Positions 2,233 to 33,290 of a stretch of DNA of 33,950 nucleotides are shown here, one piece after another. Source of the DNA: a virus; the IMG/VR virus record IMGVR_UViG_3300044641_003268, positions 1-33,950 of that record; one strand, 5' to 3'. Each line of letters starts with the position of its first letter. The stretch's first letter is position 1. A program made the position numbers and the translations under genes. The notes beneath the pieces are model-generated. The model saw only the letters and a program-made list of their open reading frames with translations, did no database searches and was not told where the DNA came from.

Positions 2233-2266
2233 TTGACGAGCGTAGCCGATTGCTCTACGGTGTCAA
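2233..2266. promoter_or_regulatory. Overlapping antiparallel promoters within an inverted repeat
   Basis: On the plus strand TTGACG (2233-2238), 17 bases, TACGGT (2256-2261) precedes the helicase ATG at 2282. On the minus strand TTGACA (2266-2261), 16 bases, TACGCT (2244-2239) precedes the ribbon-helix-helix ATG at 2216. Each -10 overlaps or abuts the other promoter's -35. The segment is also an imperfect palindrome: TTGAC/CGTAG at 2233-2237 and 2241-2245 mirrored by CTACG/GTCAA at 2255-2259 and 2262-2266. A dimeric repressor could bind here. Promoter activity is inferred from sequence only. Confidence 0.45.
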
Positions 2267-9825: not shown

Positions 9826-9911
9826 CTGTCCCCCTTCTGTTCGAACTGCTGATCGTCTACGTCGTGGCGTGCTGCTTGGCGCTGTGGCTGGCGTCGAAGC
9901 TACTGCCATGA
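9822..9911 (+). CDS. Very small membrane peptide
   Basis: A 29-residue peptide with GTG start 9822, overlapping the previous stop (GTGA), and stop 9909-9911 overlapping the next ATG (ATGA). Almost the whole length is one membrane helix (LLFELLIVYVVACCLALWL). It fits the coupled-overlap style of this block at both ends, which is the main argument that it is translated. No homologue is known to me. It is easily missed because of its size. Confidence 0.45.
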   Translation: MTVPLLFELLIVYVVACCLALWLASKLLP

Positions 9912-10141
9912 ACATTGGCGAGCAGCGATGCCCTAAATGCAATGGTCGGATGCGGCTGGTATTGCAAGAGCGCACCTACGGCAATCGTGCCAAACGCAGG
10001 CGGCATGAGTGCTACGACTGCCAAGAACGCAGTACTAGCTACCTTGTAAATGATGACTTTTTCCGGCAGCTAACGGCTGCGCATGATATCGTTCAACGGT
10101 TGCAGGGGTTTTACTTTGACCACTGCGACCCCATTAATTAG
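9908..10141 (+). CDS. Zinc-ribbon protein
   Basis: A 77-residue protein with a four-cysteine zinc ribbon: CPKC at 8-11 and CYDC about 25 residues later. Between them is a basic loop GNRAKRRRHE, which resembles NrdR-type or phage Ogr/Delta-type zinc ribbons. The rest is a helical tail. ATG 9908 was chosen because it overlaps the previous stop; a GTG/TTG further upstream would read through that gene. The gene lies just before the structured spacer and the sigma gene, so a role in transcription control is possible but unproven. Confidence 0.65.
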   Translation: MNIGEQRCPKCNGRMRLVLQERTYGNRAKRRRHECYDCQERSTSYLVNDDFFRQLTAAHDIVQRLQGFYFDHCDPIN

Positions 10142-10249: not shown

Positions 10250-11137
10250 ATGACGCCCGATTCGTTCAAGCAGTACCTCAACGCCATCGGCCGATACCCA
10301 TTGCTGTCGGCTGAGCAAGAAATCCAACTGTCGCGCCAGGTGCGACGATACCTTGATCTGCGTGACGCAGAAGGAGAACGCACCAAGCAGGAACAGCGCG
10401 AGATGCGCGTTGGCATCCGTGCGCGCGACATGATCATTAATTGCAACCTGCGATTGGTGGTTCATATCTCCAAGCGGTACGTAACCCGGCTGCAGTCCAA
10501 CAACATGGACCTTATGGATTTGATCCAAGAGGGTGCGCTTGGCTTGCATCGTGCTGCAGAGATGTTTGATGGTACTAAGGGGTATAAGTTTTCCACTTAT
10601 GCCTACTGGTGGATTCGTCAAGCAATTACCCGCGCTATCGACACCAAAGAGCGGTTGATTCGAGTGCCGCAACATGCGCTAGAAAAAACCTACGCTGCTG
10701 CCAAAACGCAACGTGAATTTGCACAGACCAATGGCCGCACGCCTACGGTCCGGGAAGTAGCTGACATTCTCAATATCAAAACAGATGAGCTGTTAATGCT
10801 CATGGAGCGCAATAGACCGCACCGAAGCCTAGATGCGCTGATCACTGAAGATGGCAGTACAATACTAGACATCATCGCCGATGAATATGGCATTGACGAA
10901 GACCACAACCCTGAAGAGATTTGTGAGCGCGTTGAGCAGCTGCAGCTGGCTTTTTTTCGCCTAGATCCATTTGACAGGGATGTTGTGCGCATGAACTATG
11001 GCATTGGCTGTGAAACGCCTTGCAGCTATGCCGAAATCGGGCGCAATCTGGGTGTGTGCAGAGAGCGTGTCAGGCAACGTGCGCAACGTGCGCAGCGCAA
11101 GCTAAAGCTGATTCTGCAACCATCATTGGCGGCGTAA
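10250..11137 (+). CDS. SigA-like sigma-70 factor
   Basis: A 295-residue sigma-70 factor of the primary (group 1/2) type that would direct host RNA polymerase. Region 1.2 is at 4-36 (YLNAIGRYPLLSAEQEIQLS), very like cyanobacterial SigA proteins. Region 2 is at about 60-130, with NLRLVVHISKRYV, DLIQEGALGL and the -10 binding stretch FSTYAYWWIRQAITRAI. Region 3 is at 139-215. Region 4 is at about 232-290, with the HTH SYAEIGRNLGVCRERVRQRA. All main regions are intact; only the long region 1.1 is missing. The usual RQIE after the recognition helix reads RQRA, which may alter -35 or activator contacts. It is the last gene of the early block and ends convergent with the gene at 11123. Confidence 0.92.
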   Translation: MTPDSFKQYLNAIGRYPLLSAEQEIQLSRQVRRYLDLRDAEGERTKQEQREMRVGIRARDMIINCNLRLVVHISKRYVTRLQSNNMDLMDLIQEGALGLHRAAEMFDGTKGYKFSTYAYWWIRQAITRAIDTKERLIRVPQHALEKTYAAAKTQREFAQTNGRTPTVREVADILNIKTDELLMLMERNRPHRSLDALITEDGSTILDIIADEYGIDEDHNPEEICERVEQLQLAFFRLDPFDRDVVRMNYGIGCETPCSYAEIGRNLGVCRERVRQRAQRAQRKLKLILQPSLAA

Positions 11138-11362
11138 CAGCCGCTGCCACCATGATTTCGATTTGGAGCAGCCTAAAAACTGCTCCATTTCTAATTTGGC
11201 AATATGGCCAGTTGCCTGCTGGATTAGCTTGGATTGATACGCATTTTGACGAATCAACGACGCGCATAAATGCGCCACTTGGCTGGGGTCATCATGGGCA
11301 AGGGCGGCACGCGCTTGCCCTTCTAGTCGTAGTTGATCTTCTACTGATAGTTCTACAACCAT
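11123..11362 (-). CDS. Small helical protein of unknown function
   Basis: A 79-residue protein on the minus strand. It has a charged helix VELSVEDQLRLEGQARAALA, then DDPSQVAHLCASLIRQ and NAYQSKLIQQATGHIAKLE, and a basic end. I recall similar short proteins from picocyanobacteria and their phages, with no known role. ATG 11362 has GGGG about seven bases upstream; an in-frame ATG at 11380 would add six residues and is possible. Its 3' end overlaps the sigma gene's 3' end by 15 bases. The apparent plus-strand reading here is less protein-like. Confidence 0.6.
   Translation of the reverse strand: MVVELSVEDQLRLEGQARAALAHDDPSQVAHLCASLIRQNAYQSKLIQQATGHIAKLEMEQFLGCSKSKSWWQRLLRRQ
11129..11144. other. 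Hairpin at convergent gene ends
   Basis: GCGGC (11129-11133) and GCCGC (11140-11144) flank six bases that include the sigma stop codon. There is no T-tract on either side, so termination is doubtful. It marks the meeting point of the early plus-strand block and the minus-strand gene. Confidence 0.25.
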
Positions 11363-11378: not shown

Positions 11379-11543
11379 ATGACTAACGACAACCTGCTAC
11401 CGCCAACACTAGAGCAGGTTGGCGATATATGGCGCGTCACTTATGCAGGAATGGTGAAGGAGCACAAGCAAGACTGGCAGGCGCAATGGCACTACCAGCA
11501 AGCTTGTGACATGTACTTATCCGCGCGAGGCAGTGACGATTGA
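11379..11543 (+). CDS. Small protein of unknown function
   Basis: A 54-residue protein from ATG 11379 to a TGA at 11541-11543. It has an N-terminal LPPTLEQVGDIWR, then a helical stretch with many Gln, Trp and Tyr (HKQDWQAQWHYQQACDMYLS). The start lies divergent from the minus gene, and the two possible ATGs share a CATG. No ribosome-binding site is visible. The last 27 bases overlap the 3' end of the dCTP deaminase on the other strand. It looks like a real short protein by composition, but there is no family to support it. Confidence 0.48.
   Translation: MTNDNLLPPTLEQVGDIWRVTYAGMVKEHKQDWQAQWHYQQACDMYLSARGSDD
11390..11424. promoter_or_regulatory. Two competing inverted repeats
   Basis: CAACCTGCT (11390-11398) pairs with AGCAGGTTG (11413-11421), a perfect nine-base stem. 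CGCCAAC (11401-11407) pairs with GTTGGCG (11418-11424), a perfect seven-base stem. The right arms overlap, so only one stem can form at a time. They lie just inside the 54-residue gene and upstream of the divergent gene at 11362. Function is not known; an operator or an RNA switch are both possible. Confidence 0.4.
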
Positions 11544-12032
11544 ATCGTTGTTATACCGTCCAGTCACTGCATAGGTGCGCTCTGGCGTGCCGGCAATGAC
11601 ATGAAACACCATCTGGCCAATCTTCATGCCAGGCCACAATGCAATATTGTGATACCGGCGGCTATTGTGCAGCTCCAAAGTGAGCCGACTGCCATGCCAG
11701 CCTGGGTCACAGTATCCAGCAAGCAGATGCTCCAAGCCAGACCTAGCGCGGCTGGACTTCAGTACAAACTGCGCAGCAATGTGATCTGGCAGATTAAAAA
11801 ACTCTTGCGTTTCAGCTAGCGCAAACTCACTAGGCGCCAACCAGTAAGGATCTGCTTCTGTGTGGTGCGCAATGCTTAGCAACTGCAGGTCTGCAGTATG
11901 TTCCACTTCCACCATTAGGTTGTCGCCAAGCAATACGTCAAGCGACGCTGGATTTTGCAGTTCTGCATTGTATGGCACCACCATTGCATGTTGCTTGCAC
12001 AGGCGGCAGATCTCGTGGTCAGGAATAATCAT
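11517..12032 (-). CDS. dcd: dCTP deaminase-like protein
   Basis: A 171-residue enzyme that would deaminate dCTP to dUTP (or, if bifunctional, on to dUMP), feeding thymidine synthesis. Signature residues: KSSRARSG at 92-99 (substrate-binding Ser and Arg), GYCDPGWHGSRLTLELHNS at about 106-124 with the catalytic Glu at 120, and PGMKIGQMVF at 134-143. ATG 12032 overlaps the lysin stop (TGATG); a TTG three bases upstream is less likely. Its place behind the lysis genes on the late strand is unusual for a nucleotide-metabolism gene. The dUTPase family shares this fold, but the RARSG and LTLELHN motifs favour the deaminase. Confidence 0.85.
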   Translation of the reverse strand: MIIPDHEICRLCKQHAMVVPYNAELQNPASLDVLLGDNLMVEVEHTADLQLLSIAHHTEADPYWLAPSEFALAETQEFFNLPDHIAAQFVLKSSRARSGLEHLLAGYCDPGWHGSRLTLELHNSRRYHNIALWPGMKIGQMVFHVIAGTPERTYAVTGRYNNDSIVTASRG

Positions 12033-13081
12033 CAATAATCCCAGCGGACTTTAGGACGGCCAGCGCGGATACCAAGATGCACAAAGCCCTTGGGTGCGCC
12101 GTAGCCAAGACTATACGGCCATTCCTTGTCACACCATGCCTGCAACTTATTGATGTCAACGCCTTGGATGTAGAAGTCCACAGCGCCGACATTAGGAGCG
12201 CTGTATAGGTGCTCCGAGCTGCTGGCGCCACCTACTGAGCGGTTGATTGCTGCTGGCCGGTAGCCGCTGGTAATAATGACAGGCTTGCCGCCAAATACAG
12301 ATCGTGCGCGCTCCATGAATGCCGCCAGTTCGGCTGCTGTATTTACTTGGTGCTGTGCATCAAATCGCCGCACCTCTTGATTTAATGCAAACTCACCTAG
12401 CGTGATGTGCGGTGTGATGCGCGCGCCAAACGAACTAGAAGGCGTCAGCTTGGCCGGTTGTTGCTGCTGCTCAAGGTTGCCAGTGAATAGCCGTACCTCA
12501 GCAGCGCGGCGCCTTGCAAGCCCTTCTAGCGTCTTGCCATCAGCCTTATCCCATTTGGGCAGCTCCTCTGGCACGACTACGCTGGGCGCCTCGCCAGCCG
12601 CCAGCCGCTTGCGCAGAGTTGACTCCTCTACGGCACCGAGCCCTACATTGAATGCCCAAGACACCAGCGCAGCTTGCTGGTTAGGCTTCCATGCCTTCAT
12701 CAAAGGCAGCAAGCCAAACAGGCCAGGGGCAAATAGGTTTTCGACTTGATTGCGCAGCAGCTCCTCGGCCATCTGCTGCGTGATCTTGTCGCCCATGCGC
12801 ACTGGCGCATCAATCAACCGTGTCGCGCCATAGCCAATGGTTGGCACACCAGCTGGGCAGCGGTATGCCTCAAGTCGCAAACCTTCGAATTCGCGGATGA
12901 TCTTGAGCGCTGGCTCCAACCATGGCGCTGCAGGCGTTGCCGGTGCAGCGCGGAACAGTTCTAGGAACTCCGCCTGCTGCTCCGCGCTTAACCAATCCCA
13001 TGCTGCATTCCATGCTGCAATTTGATGCGGCTGTGGATTCTGCTTGTCGGTCCACTTAGCTGCTGTAAGGAAGTTGCTCAT
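12032..13081 (-). CDS. Two-domain endolysin: GH24 muramidase plus M15 peptidase
   Basis: A 349-residue lysin with two different cell-wall enzymes. Residues 1-50 are a helical N-terminal segment (QPHQIAAWNAAWDWLS) of unknown role. Residues about 55-200 are a T4-type lysozyme: EFEGLRLEAYRCPAGVPTIG with catalytic Glu 66 and Thr 81; the Asp usual in T4 lysozyme is Cys 75. Then comes a Gln/Pro linker at about 203-215. Residues about 220-349 are an M15-type zinc peptidase: SGYRP with Arg 275, SSEHL with His 291, AVDF with Asp 302 and FVHLG with His 335. No signal peptide is visible, so export depends on the holin encoded upstream. It overlaps neighbours by ATGA and TGATG. Confidence 0.88.
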   Translation of the reverse strand: MSNFLTAAKWTDKQNPQPHQIAAWNAAWDWLSAEQQAEFLELFRAAPATPAAPWLEPALKIIREFEGLRLEAYRCPAGVPTIGYGATRLIDAPVRMGDKITQQMAEELLRNQVENLFAPGLFGLLPLMKAWKPNQQAALVSWAFNVGLGAVEESTLRKRLAAGEAPSVVVPEELPKWDKADGKTLEGLARRRAAEVRLFTGNLEQQQQPAKLTPSSSFGARITPHITLGEFALNQEVRRFDAQHQVNTAAELAAFMERARSVFGGKPVIITSGYRPAAINRSVGGASSSEHLYSAPNVGAVDFYIQGVDINKLQAWCDKEWPYSLGYGAPKGFVHLGIRAGRPKVRWDY

Positions 13082-16794: not shown

Positions 16795-17096
16795 GGCAAG
16801 CCCTGGGCGACGGTGGGCTGGCGCTGCTCGTCCAGTTGCTTCTGGAGGGCGGCTTCCACCTCTGCCACCTTTTCGGCGGTCAGCTTTTCTTGCACCCAGC
16901 CGATGACGATCTCGGGGGTGAGGTCGGCGAAGGGGATGATGTTGCCCTCGGGCTGCTCTAGGCCGATGCTGCCGTAGGCGCCGGCGTTGGCGTCAACGGT
17001 GTAATGCACCGTGAACACAATGCCGTCGGCGGTGTGGCGTTCCAGCTGGGCGATTCCCCACTGGAAGGTGGTGGTGGGTGTGGCGGTCTTGGCCAT
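16785..17096 (-). CDS. DUF7936-like protein
   Basis: A 103-residue protein with FQWGIAQLERHTADGIVFTV at 11-30, VHYTVDANAGAYGSIGLE and PFADLTPEIVIGWVQEKL, then a charged helix. I recall this pattern as a domain of unknown function found widely in cyanophages (DUF7936). The last part LPWQ overlaps the next small gene. It sits between the S74 fibre and the small beta proteins, so it is probably a virion or fibre-associated protein. The numbering of the family is from memory. Confidence 0.65.
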   Translation of the reverse strand: MAKTATPTTTFQWGIAQLERHTADGIVFTVHYTVDANAGAYGSIGLEQPEGNIIPFADLTPEIVIGWVQEKLTAEKVAEVEAALQKQLDEQRQPTVAQGLPWQ

Positions 17097-17174
17097 GGGT
17101 CAAGTGGGGGTAGGTGGAGTGTAATTGGGTTGCAACCTGTTGAGTAGGCCGGTTGCCCGCCTTAGCAAGCAGGA

Positions 17175-19556
17175 CTACACGCCCTCAAGGGCTGCAACTT
17201 TGGCTTCGATGGTTTCGATCTTGGCGATGGCTTCTTGGAGCGCTTTCACCAACCGTGCCTCTGTTTTGCTCCAACCAGTAACGGTAAGCATGTCGTCGGT
17301 ACCCTGGGCAACAGCGTCTGGATATACCTGCTCCATCTCCTGCGCAATAAAACCAATTTGATGACCACTACCATCTTTGTAATCAAATTCAACTGGCCTT
17401 AAGCTGCAGATATTTTGTAGTTGTGAAGGGATGTCGACGATATTTTCTTTCAACCTGGCATCTGAAAAACTTCCAAATGCGGCGGCGCCACTACCATTCG
17501 CGTTAATTTGCCCGCTGCCACCAGTGCCGTTGTTGATGTAGAAACGCTGGAAGATCTGCGCAGTTGTGGAGTTGTTGTCAAACTTAGATATAGCAATTCC
17601 TTCAAGAATGGCATCGCCGGCTCCGCTTCCAGAGAACAAAGCTATTCGCTGTGATGTTTCAGCAGGTATATTTGCGGAAACAAACAACTTGCCAGTGCTG
17701 ATATTTGTGCCTCCAATAAGCAGCGCACCGGTGCTAGTCAACCTCATCCGCTCCGTCGGGCTGCTCGCTCCGTCGGCGGTAGTGGAGAACACTAATCTAG
17801 ACGGCTTTGATGATGCACTCCAAGTGCCGCCATCACGCTGGGCGCCAAATCGCGCACCGGGGAGATGCCCTGAATCCGTAAAATCAAAGTAGGCAAGATA
17901 TTGGTCGGCCGCAGGTGTAGCTGTTCCCAATGCAAACTTGAGGATGGCAGAACCGGTTGAATCACCACTCCAACCTTGAAATACAGCTCTACTTCCCTCA
18001 GAAGTGGAAGACGTGCCAACTAAAAGGCGCCCTGCATTGTCCCAGCGGCCCCTTTCAATCGAAGGCGCTGATGTTGACGTACGAAAGATAATATTTCCGC
18101 CAGTACCACTCCCCGTGGAAGTTGAGAAGATTTGGTTGTTGTTGTTGGTTTCGTATTTAACAGAGTAAGAATCACCACCACTTTCTGTGGTTGATATTAA
18201 TAAATGTGTAACTGCTGAATTACTGGGCCTTGTCAGGGCAATTCCATCGTCAGAAGATGCACGAATTGTAAAAGTGTTGGTTGGTGCAGTAGTACCAATC
18301 CCCACGCGGCCACTTGCATCAACAAACAACCGCCCCGTGCTGGCCGTCGCCAGTGCCACGGTATTCGTGCCGCTGAGGTAGAGCCCGTTCGCGGGAACCG
18401 TGCTGCTGGTAGGAATGAAGCTGGCGGCGGTGCTAGTGCCGGTGGTGATCGTTGGTTGGTTAAAGGTCCAGCTATCGGTAGTGTCGCTCCAAGTGATGGT
18501 CTTGTCGGTTGCACCCTTGAGCGTGATACCGCCGCCGTCTGCTGTGGTATCGGAGGGAGTGGCAACATCACCCAAGATGATGTTTTTGTCTTCGACCACC
18601 AAGTTGGTGGTGTTGATGTTGGTGGTGGTGCCGTTGACGGTCAGGTCGCCTTGGACCGTCACGCTGCTGTCAAAGGTGGCCGCGCCCGTAACGTCCAGTG
18701 TGCCGGGGATGTCGATGTTGCTAGTCCACTCAACGCCAGTGCCGGCGGCGTCGGTCTGAAGCAGCTGACGGGCGGCACCATCGGCCAGCTTGCTGACGGC
18801 GATCTCGGCGGTGGCACTGATGTCCGCATCGACGATGGTGCCATCGGCCAGCATCGTGCTCGTGACGGTGCCGGTGTCGCCGGTTGTGACAACGGTGCCG
18901 GAAACGTTGGGCAGCGTGATCGTGCGGTCGGCAGTGGGATCGACAACGGCGATGGTTGTCTCAAAGCCGTCAGCGGTGGCGCCTTCAAAGCTGAGGCTGC
19001 CGGTGGTGCCAATCTCGAGGTTGCCGGTAATGTTACCACCGGTTCTGGGAAGCGCTGCGTTCGCAGTGGTTTGCGCAGCGTCAGCCGCATCCTTTGCGGT
19101 TTTGACAGCAGCACTGTTAGCGATGGTCGTCGTGCTTGTGCTGGCGGCGCTGCTGCTGAGTTTGGATTGCAGGCTGGCTGGAGTTACCGCACGCAGCGCG
19201 TCGCTACCCGTTTGGGTTTCTGCGTCGGTGGCTAGCTCGACAATGCCGGCTTGAGTTGTCGAGGCAGCGTAGACAGTGGTAGCGCCCACCCACGTGTCGG
19301 TACTGTCCTTGTAGACCTTGAGCAGTGCAGGTGTGCTGCCGATGTCGAGCCAGAACTCGCCAGGGGTTGGCGTCGCGGGTGCAGTGCTGTTGATCCAGAC
19401 GCCAGCCACACGGCGCACAACGCCAGCGGTGTCCTTACAACTAAGAAATGGCCCGTCAGCGTGGTAGTTGAGCGATAGTTCGCCGTTGGCAAGCTGATCA
19501 ACGGTCGGCTCTTTGGCGCTGACCGCGGAGTTCTTGAGGATGATCTGCAGGGACAT
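17175..19556 (-). CDS. Tail fibre with C-terminal S74 chaperone domain
   Basis: A 793-residue trimeric fibre. The N-terminus is tail-binding-like (LQIILKNSAVSAKEPTVDQL), with a GEFWLDIG segment near 85-92. The middle is beta-rich with ITLPNVSGTVVTTGDTGTVT and GDLTVNGTTTNINTTNLVVE repeats. The last about 96 residues from Ser 698 are an S74-type intramolecular chaperone: SDARLKENI with the Ser 698/Lys 703 dyad, IGFIAQEMEQVYPDAV, and a final coiled coil. In this family the chaperone cuts itself off after trimer folding. A perfect ribosome-binding site GGAGG (19568-19564) lies seven bases before the ATG. Confidence 0.88.
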   Translation of the reverse strand: MSLQIILKNSAVSAKEPTVDQLANGELSLNYHADGPFLSCKDTAGVVRRVAGVWINSTAPATPTPGEFWLDIGSTPALLKVYKDSTDTWVGATTVYAASTTQAGIVELATDAETQTGSDALRAVTPASLQSKLSSSAASTSTTTIANSAAVKTAKDAADAAQTTANAALPRTGGNITGNLEIGTTGSLSFEGATADGFETTIAVVDPTADRTITLPNVSGTVVTTGDTGTVTSTMLADGTIVDADISATAEIAVSKLADGAARQLLQTDAAGTGVEWTSNIDIPGTLDVTGAATFDSSVTVQGDLTVNGTTTNINTTNLVVEDKNIILGDVATPSDTTADGGGITLKGATDKTITWSDTTDSWTFNQPTITTGTSTAASFIPTSSTVPANGLYLSGTNTVALATASTGRLFVDASGRVGIGTTAPTNTFTIRASSDDGIALTRPSNSAVTHLLISTTESGGDSYSVKYETNNNNQIFSTSTGSGTGGNIIFRTSTSAPSIERGRWDNAGRLLVGTSSTSEGSRAVFQGWSGDSTGSAILKFALGTATPAADQYLAYFDFTDSGHLPGARFGAQRDGGTWSASSKPSRLVFSTTADGASSPTERMRLTSTGALLIGGTNISTGKLFVSANIPAETSQRIALFSGSGAGDAILEGIAISKFDNNSTTAQIFQRFYINNGTGGSGQINANGSGAAAFGSFSDARLKENIVDIPSQLQNICSLRPVEFDYKDGSGHQIGFIAQEMEQVYPDAVAQGTDDMLTVTGWSKTEARLVKALQEAIAKIETIEAKVAALEGV

Positions 19557-25280: not shown

Positions 25281-25675
25281 TAGAACGTACCACTGATGGG
25301 CCCTGTTACTTGGAAGGTCAGGCTGCAGGCGATTACTTCACCTACTGACACTGGTGCTGTTACCTGCGTCAGGATGGCAGAGACTTCAAATACGGTGTTT
25401 AACGACGTATTTAGCACAAACCCGATGGTCTGGGCGCCCGTCGTATTGCTGAACACGGAGTTGAGCAGCTGGACGGTTGAGGTGTCGTCCTTGTCGTAGA
25501 GGACGGTGGCGTTACCTGATGCTCCACGTAGACCCTCTACGTATGTTCGATCCCAGGTGCCAAGCACTGTGGATTCGAGGGCGTCTCGGTTGATGTCCAG
25601 CGAAAAGCTGCGGCATTTGCCAACGCGGACGCCGTTGTAGCGCAACTCGCCACTTGTTCCGGTGACAACAGCCAT
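25280..25675 (-). CDS. Tail-tube-like protein
   Basis: A 131-residue protein with the tail-tube motif order: GELRYNGVRVGKCRSFSLDI, ALESTVLGTWDRTYVEGLRG, GNATVLYDKDD, LLNSVF, and a C-terminal ILTQVTAPVSVGEVIACSLT then FQVTGPISGTF. It is shorter than the likely major tube protein at the right edge (at least 208 residues). Being downstream of the tip protein, it may form a special ring at the tail end rather than the main tube. It overlaps the gene at 25675 by one base. Confidence 0.65.
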   Translation of the reverse strand: MAVVTGTSGELRYNGVRVGKCRSFSLDINRDALESTVLGTWDRTYVEGLRGASGNATVLYDKDDTSTVQLLNSVFSNTTGAQTIGFVLNTSLNTVFEVSAILTQVTAPVSVGEVIACSLTFQVTGPISGTF

Positions 25676-26055
25676 CAGCCGTCCCTCTGGCCTTCCAACT
25701 TCACTGTAATGCTACTGAACCCTGGGGCACCAGACGTAATGCCGGGAGCTTCGGCAAAACGCCACGAGTAATCACGCTGCAGACGCACCTTAAGGGTGTC
25801 GGCCATTCCTGCCCACAACTCGGACGGAAGTGTAATTACCTCTTTACTCCCTCGTGCTGTTTCGTAGGCGTTAGTGATCAGCAAAGCCTGATCATCGGCA
25901 ATATTGTCAAACTGTAGGGACAGTTGCGAATTAAACGGCTGGCTTCCGTAAATTCGAGACGTGCCCGTACCAGCAATGCTGTTGAAGCGTTTGACGGCGT
26001 ACTGCCCCTGAGTGACAGACCGGCTTGTGGGGACTATGGACGGAAAGGCAGTCAT
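25675..26055 (-). CDS. Small tail protein
   Basis: A 126-residue protein. ATG 26055 was chosen with GAGGT about eight bases upstream; a longer reading into the tip gene's 3' end would add 31 unlikely residues. Features: FPSIVPTSRSVTQGQYAVKR, FNSIAGTGTSRIYGSQPFNS and an end ITVKLEGQRDG. The first block resembles short phage tail proteins I recall beside tail-tip genes in cyanophages. No motif gives a function. It is followed at once by the tail-tube-like gene, suggesting that they assemble together. Confidence 0.65.
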   Translation of the reverse strand: MTAFPSIVPTSRSVTQGQYAVKRFNSIAGTGTSRIYGSQPFNSQLSLQFDNIADDQALLITNAYETARGSKEVITLPSELWAGMADTLKVRLQRDYSWRFAEAPGITSGAPGFSSITVKLEGQRDG

Positions 26056-32927: not shown

Positions 32928-33258
32928 TCATGTCCAGTTGCTCAGCATCCTCAGGGTTAGTGATGATTGCCAGCATCATGCCTTGCAGGTCAGCATCTAA
33001 CACCTCTTCCTTGAGTTCGGCAATTTCTCCGGCCGCAAACAAGCGCTTGCCGGTGTCGTCCACGGCCTTGGTAACTAGCAAGTTCAATGCAAAGCCATTG
33101 GTGTTGCTGCCACCGGGCATGTTCTCTGCGCGCTCGCGTTCGGCCATTGTGAGTGGCGCGGAGTAAAACTCAAAAACGCTGCCATCGGTTAGCGTTACAG
33201 CCCGCTTGGTTGGCGTCAGGTTGGCTGCTTTTTTGAGGCGAGCGAGCGCGGATCCCAT
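32902..33258 (-). CDS. Tail assembly chaperone, G-like
   Basis: A 118-residue protein between major tail and tape measure genes, the usual place of the G chaperone that keeps the tape measure soluble. Typical helical pattern: SALARLKKAANLTPTKRAVT, SVFEFYSAPLTMAERERAEN, then an Ala/Leu/Glu-rich helical end with a DDTGKRLFAAGEIAELK stretch. ATG 33258 has no obvious ribosome-binding site. It lies 33 bases downstream of a strong terminator, so it is probably expressed at a lower level than the tail tube gene. The 3' end overlaps the T-like extension in another frame. Confidence 0.75.
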   Translation of the reverse strand: MGSALARLKKAANLTPTKRAVTLTDGSVFEFYSAPLTMAERERAENMPGGSNTNGFALNLLVTKAVDDTGKRLFAAGEIAELKEEVLDADLQGMMLAIITNPEDAEQLDMKSIKEGAK

Positions 33259-33290
33259 AAAAGTTGATGAGTTAGGCGTACTCTAAGCAC

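Follow-up and report, generated by a model that had tools for sequence, protein, structure and literature searches.

A group-2-like sigma factor in a cyanosiphovirus contig and candidate -10-only promoters on its late strand

Late-gene timing in small cyanophages without an RNA polymerase of their own has been little studied, and the viral contig examined here (33,950 bases, analysed over its whole length and referred to as the window) raises the question of what such a phage does with a near-complete sigma factor: raise transcription of its own late genes, redirect that of the host, or serve a separate class of promoters. On the + strand, from position 2282, a helicase, a GntR-type HTH protein, exonuclease VIII, RecT and an SSB-like protein precede the sigma gene, and the - strand encodes tail, tail fibre and tape measure proteins and the endolysin, as well as a VapE-type primase/helicase (4-2067); the labels early and late are inferences from the genes that each block holds and from its strand. 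With replication, tail and lysis genes present and no host chromosomal genes or host flanks seen in the window, the stretch is, as an earlier sequence-only reading had supposed, a phage and not a host region carrying a host sigma. A host prophage was considered and rejected, as the window has no match to the Pfam tyrosine-recombinase integrase PF00589, no tRNA and no host flanks. The sister genome G005 (45,032 bases, with a 109-base terminal repeat) has a matching gene plan, and comparison with it shows that the window lacks the terminase-to-capsid part, those genes being assigned from their order. Coordinates of the main features are given in Table 1.

Table 1. Features of the window that bear on the sigma gene and on candidate promoters
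Feature	Position	Strand	Remarks
Group-2-like sigma-70 factor, 295 aa	10250..11137	+	ATG start; regions 1.2, 2, 3 and 4
Rho-independent terminator-like hairpin	11164..11187	+	26 nt past the stop codon of sigma; sister genomes share an unchanged stem and differ in the flanks
Conserved 54-aa ORF	11379..11543	+	downstream of sigma, same strand; 89-100% conserved; no Pfam match
Endolysin (phage lysozyme and peptidase M15)	12032..13081	-	last of the large late genes, with the dCTP deaminase gene after it; convergent with sigma
Candidate late -10, TACACT	17118..17123	-	21 nt before start codon at 17096
Candidate late -10, TACAGT	25703..25708	-	27 nt before start codon at 25675
Candidate late -10, TAGAGT	33280..33285	-	21 nt before start codon at 33258; immediately follows a terminator hairpin; three sister genomes conserve it
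Candidate early promoter, TTGACG-17-TACGGT	2233..2261	+	ahead of the helicase (2282), where early block and primase diverge; weakly supported, from one site; coordinates may be off by one or two bases

The protein itself proved to be as complete as the sequence-only reading had described it, with all four regions matched in Pfam above the gathering cut-offs: region 1.2 at residues 4-35 (E 3.8e-12), region 2 at 63-134 (E 7e-18, 64.6 bits against a cut-off of 24), region 3 at 145-217 (E 1e-12) and region 4 at 237-286 (E 3e-11, 43 bits against 24.1). Since regions 2 and 4 both exceed their curated cut-offs, the protein belongs to the sigma-70 family, and it also matches the sigma factor family PHROG 351 with 255 bits. 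The canonical -10-reading residues noted earlier were likewise found, those equivalent to E. coli Y430, W433, W434, Q437 and R441 being invariant in 25 of 25 members of its clade. An AlphaFold2 model (mean pLDDT 81) has an all-helical sigma fold with a long helix at 271-289, and in the PDB it most resembles primary sigma factors within initiation complexes. Globally it superposes poorly (rmsd about 23), which is to be expected when a flexible protein of several domains is modelled by itself. Comparison with six close relatives gave dN/dS values of 0.03-0.06, and the sigma protein is therefore under strong purifying selection.

The position of the gene is also conserved. The next long ORF is convergent with the sigma gene in 52 of the 53 metagenomic relatives whose neighbouring gene could be scored, and likewise in S-CBS1 and S-LBS1, which bears out the described convergence with the late block, where the endolysin gene lies opposite. 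The further description of the gene as the last of the early block holds in part: a terminator-like hairpin and then a conserved 54-aa ORF on the same strand lie 3' of it, and the sigma gene is therefore the last gene of a terminated unit and not strictly the last + strand gene.

Standard scans detected no canonical TTGACA-N17-TATAAT promoters beyond chance in the window or in the sister genome, a direct-repeat search for a long repeated late motif yielded only coding-like chance families, and an unbiased comparison of 6-mer strand asymmetry with crude gaps produced no motif. The hexamer TAnA(C/G)T was suggested by the late-strand gaps of four genomes, and as this choice was post hoc, only its positional peak in held-out genomes was counted as evidence. 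In the discovery genomes, on the strand opposite the sigma gene, 16 hexamers were located 20-29 nt upstream of ORF starts against about one in each other bin. The peak recurred in the held-out G006, S-CBS3 and S-LBS1 (seven in this bin against 0-1 elsewhere) and in the other held-out relatives (40 against about six), and antisense controls were flat; ORF calling was crude throughout, and several close loci share ancestry. Outside the discovery set, TAGACT and TAAACT ranked first in an unbiased test of 6-mer enrichment. The motif search upstream of late genes that had been proposed with the sequence-only reading thus returned a -10-like element, TAnA[ACG]T at 20-29 nt before the start, with 57 hits in 549 late ORFs compared with ten in 394 ORFs of the sigma strand (p about 1e-6, from related genomes that are not fully independent). 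Few ORFs were obtained from the control phages S-CBS2, S-CBS4 and S-CBP4, of which S-CBS2 itself carries a sigma gene. Upstream of the late elements, no excess of TTGACA was found at spacers of 15-19 (mean 3.02 of 6 positions versus 3.0 in the control), nor was an extended -10 TG enriched at them. Judged by sequence and spacing, the hexamers are probably late promoters that consist of a -10 element only, with short leaders. A terminator followed by a promoter, considered as a rule for the clade, was observed in g5, the window, KBS-S-2A, S-CBS1 and S-CBS3, is not general in other relatives, and was rejected as such.

The same geometry is present in a host. Synechococcus RCC307 also has a peak at 20-29 nt, at a lower frequency (13 in 433), and the mix of C/G versus A at the fifth position of the hexamer is alike in RCC307 and in the phage late elements (p=0.48). 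The matching peak and base mix mark the late elements as -10s of the host type, gathered on the late block and readable by either host or phage sigma; the idea that the late -10 sequence is distinct from that of the host is unsupported.

It is somewhat more probable than otherwise, in our judgement, that the phage sigma, made with the replication genes, binds the host core RNA polymerase and raises late transcription from -10-only promoters, and an early-to-late switch by the phage sigma, as proposed earlier, is plausible. The factor would be produced together with the replication proteins, would associate with host core and, being competent at the -10 element, would increase transcription of the structural and lysis operons, its target promoters being TAnA(C/G)T elements about 20-29 nt before start codons. 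It would probably do so in competition with host SigA and not by reading a sequence unreadable to SigA. What was observed is the gene, its fold, constraint and position, and the promoter-like elements; from these, binding to core, timing and the choice of promoters are inferred. A point against the late-activation account is that the late -10 elements are host-like, so the phage sigma is not required for them. An extension to the whole cyanosiphovirus clade, in which a self-encoded near-complete sigma would drive a -10-only late class with the -35 contact loosened through a basic region 4.2, is tentative and perhaps the lesser chance; if it is true, the late switch of the clade would consist of competing with host SigA rather than replacing it. 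Together with the conserved sigma, the predicted late promoters allow a direct, falsifiable test in the cultured phages S-CBS1 and KBS-S-2A.

Alternatively, the sigma might mainly redirect host transcription, keeping or shifting the expression of host metabolic genes during infection, in line with the earlier conjecture of a role under stress or at night, with the late genes being read by host SigA. We regard this as unlikely, although it is the only account with experimental support so far: according to a review, expression of RpsD4 of S-CBS3 and RpoD of S-CBS2 in S. elongatus changed growth and acetyl-CoA, and thereby host carbon metabolism (Sawa 2019 in PMC10452541), and such phage sigmas therefore do act in a cyanobacterium. 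The indistinguishability of late and host -10 elements also fits it, as does the reported use of SigA-type promoters for all gene classes by Ma-LMM01 (PMC5780444). However, host redirection leaves unexplained why almost every relative keeps the gene where the replication block ends, in convergent orientation to the lysis genes, and it does not account for -10 elements being about four times more frequent on late-strand than on early ORFs.

The region that follows the recognition helix bears on a third possibility. In E. coli, R584, E585, R588 and Q589 contact the -35 element. The recognition helix of the window protein starts at residue 271 (RERVRQRAQRAQ), and the change from RQIE to RQRA after it, pointed out in the sequence-only reading, is indeed present in the window and clade-wide: at position 590 all 40 host rows of the alignment have an aliphatic residue, and 21 of 25 viral rows have R, K, N or H; E591, which is E in 36 of the 40 host rows, is largely lost across the viral clade. 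Roughly one viral row in five has lost E585, R588 or Q589 as well. A redirected -35 contact through these residues is possible. It is rather improbable that a separate class of late promoters, with a -35 or activator contact of its own, is served by the sigma and reflected in the basic residues (RQR replacing RQ-aliphatic-E); the shift at positions 590 and 591 would agree with such a class, but the late sites share no -35 motif, and the window protein keeps the equivalents of all four -35-contacting residues.

Whichever promoters it reads, the lineage of the factor is not that of a primary sigma. A tree of 81 sigmas, with host and viral rows, placed the window protein inside a supported clade of 26 rows (95/99), all of them viral and including S-CBS1 and KBS-S-2A, which excludes every host group sampled. 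The window protein carries YAYWWIRQ, the group-2 signature, at residues 117-124, and the second Y, at the position of T432, is shared by all 25 viral clade members and by 35 of 40 host rows, mostly of group 2. All four cyanobacterial SigA rows have T there (YATWWIRQ), and in the tree the SigA rows L169 and L176 lie among the hosts, apart from the viral clade. The signature and the requisite clustering of group 1 (primary, SigA/RpoD) are thus absent from the window sigma, and on signature and tree its derivation from cyanobacterial SigA, which the sequence-only reading had favoured, is rejected. As for cyanobacterial group 2, the full set of regions 1.2-4 and the YAYWWIRQ signature are present, and nesting within group-2 clades is not; the full-length match to TIGR02997, a cyanobacterial RpoD/SigA-family subfamily, reaches 263.6 bits and is below the cut-off of 384.5. 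The window sigma is a cyanosiphovirus version of the cyanobacterial group-2-type sigma-70, whose viral lineage is old and has parted from the sigmas of the hosts. Recent capture of a host SigA or group-2 sigma that is now drifting or decaying is highly improbable, for in spite of an overall identity of about 40-42% to picocyanobacterial group-2 sigmas, the gene is under strong purifying selection, its viral-only clade is old and its functional residues are intact.

Elsewhere in the tree, a second viral set (L068, L073, L075, L080 and L081) is nested inside host group 2 together with the contigs L111 and L158, so sigma capture must have occurred more than once. These five AT-rich viral contigs have a very strong TAnAAT peak 20-29 nt before starts (35 hits in 80 ORFs), with no obvious -35 by eye at these sites. 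L111 and L158 are labelled as Blastopirellula (Planctomycetota) and Crocinitomicaceae (Bacteroidota) MAGs; their sigmas fall inside a viral cyanophage clade, and they are probably misbinned phage contigs.

The window sigma is not new in kind, being a member of an already described viral family that is ordinary for cyanosiphoviruses. The earlier view that a full-length sigma is unusual for a phage does not apply to cyanophages, as 65 of 153 cyanophage genomes were found to encode a putative sigma (reviewed in PMC10452541). Homologues in Synechococcus siphoviruses are described as group 2 or RpoD sigma factors in their records and in PMC6157547 and PMC3751600, and the group 2 sigma of P-SS2 was proposed to read canonical promoters (PMC2784084). 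The annotated homologues of S-CBS1, KBS-S-2A, S-CBS3 and S-LBS1 all lie beside the late block, at its endolysin end. Closest is RpsD4 of S-CBS1 (gp27, "group 2 RNA polymerase sigma factor"), with 50% identity over 91% of the protein, the same clade, the same location, where the replication block ends and in convergent orientation to the endolysin gene, and RQR after the recognition helix; unlike the window protein, with which it is only half identical, it has C as the T440 equivalent and other small flanking genes. The RpoD-like sigma of KBS-S-2A (CPKG_00011; 48% identity) agrees in position, orientation and clade, and differs, as far as tested, by sequence divergence only. S-CBS3 RpsD4, the version reported to be active in S. 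elongatus, and the S-LBS1 RpoD-like sigma share the genomic position, whereas their identities are lower (39% and 34%) and their long branches are placed uncertainly, outside the supported clade of the window. Picocyanobacterial group-2 sigmas of the TIGR02997 family resemble the window protein in regions 1.2-4 and YAYWWIRQ and differ in the tail of region 4.2 and in clade. The late sigma gp55 of T4 is short, lacks a canonical region 4 and works with the clamp and gp33. The window sigma retains region 4 and all the others and is not of this type, and an analogy between the two may be drawn through late -10-only promoters.

Several smaller features of the contig were also noted. The dCTP deaminase gene (11517-12035, - strand) lies beyond the endolysin gene at the convergent junction and was missed by a simple coding-score gene caller, which suggests a different codon usage and possibly a separate acquisition. 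Directly 5' of the sigma gene, a small protein (9869-10141, + strand) has a weak NrdR-type zinc-ribbon match below the cut-off. In the divergent region (2050-2282), a short - strand frame just upstream of the primase resembles a ribbon-helix-helix protein and a CTTGAC...GTCAAG inverted repeat is present, both read by eye only; they are possibly an autoregulator and its operator. Finally, 57 bases at 17739-17795 are 98% identical to the tail fibre gene of S-CBP4, an unrelated podovirus, and represent a small recent exchange in the tail fibre gene.
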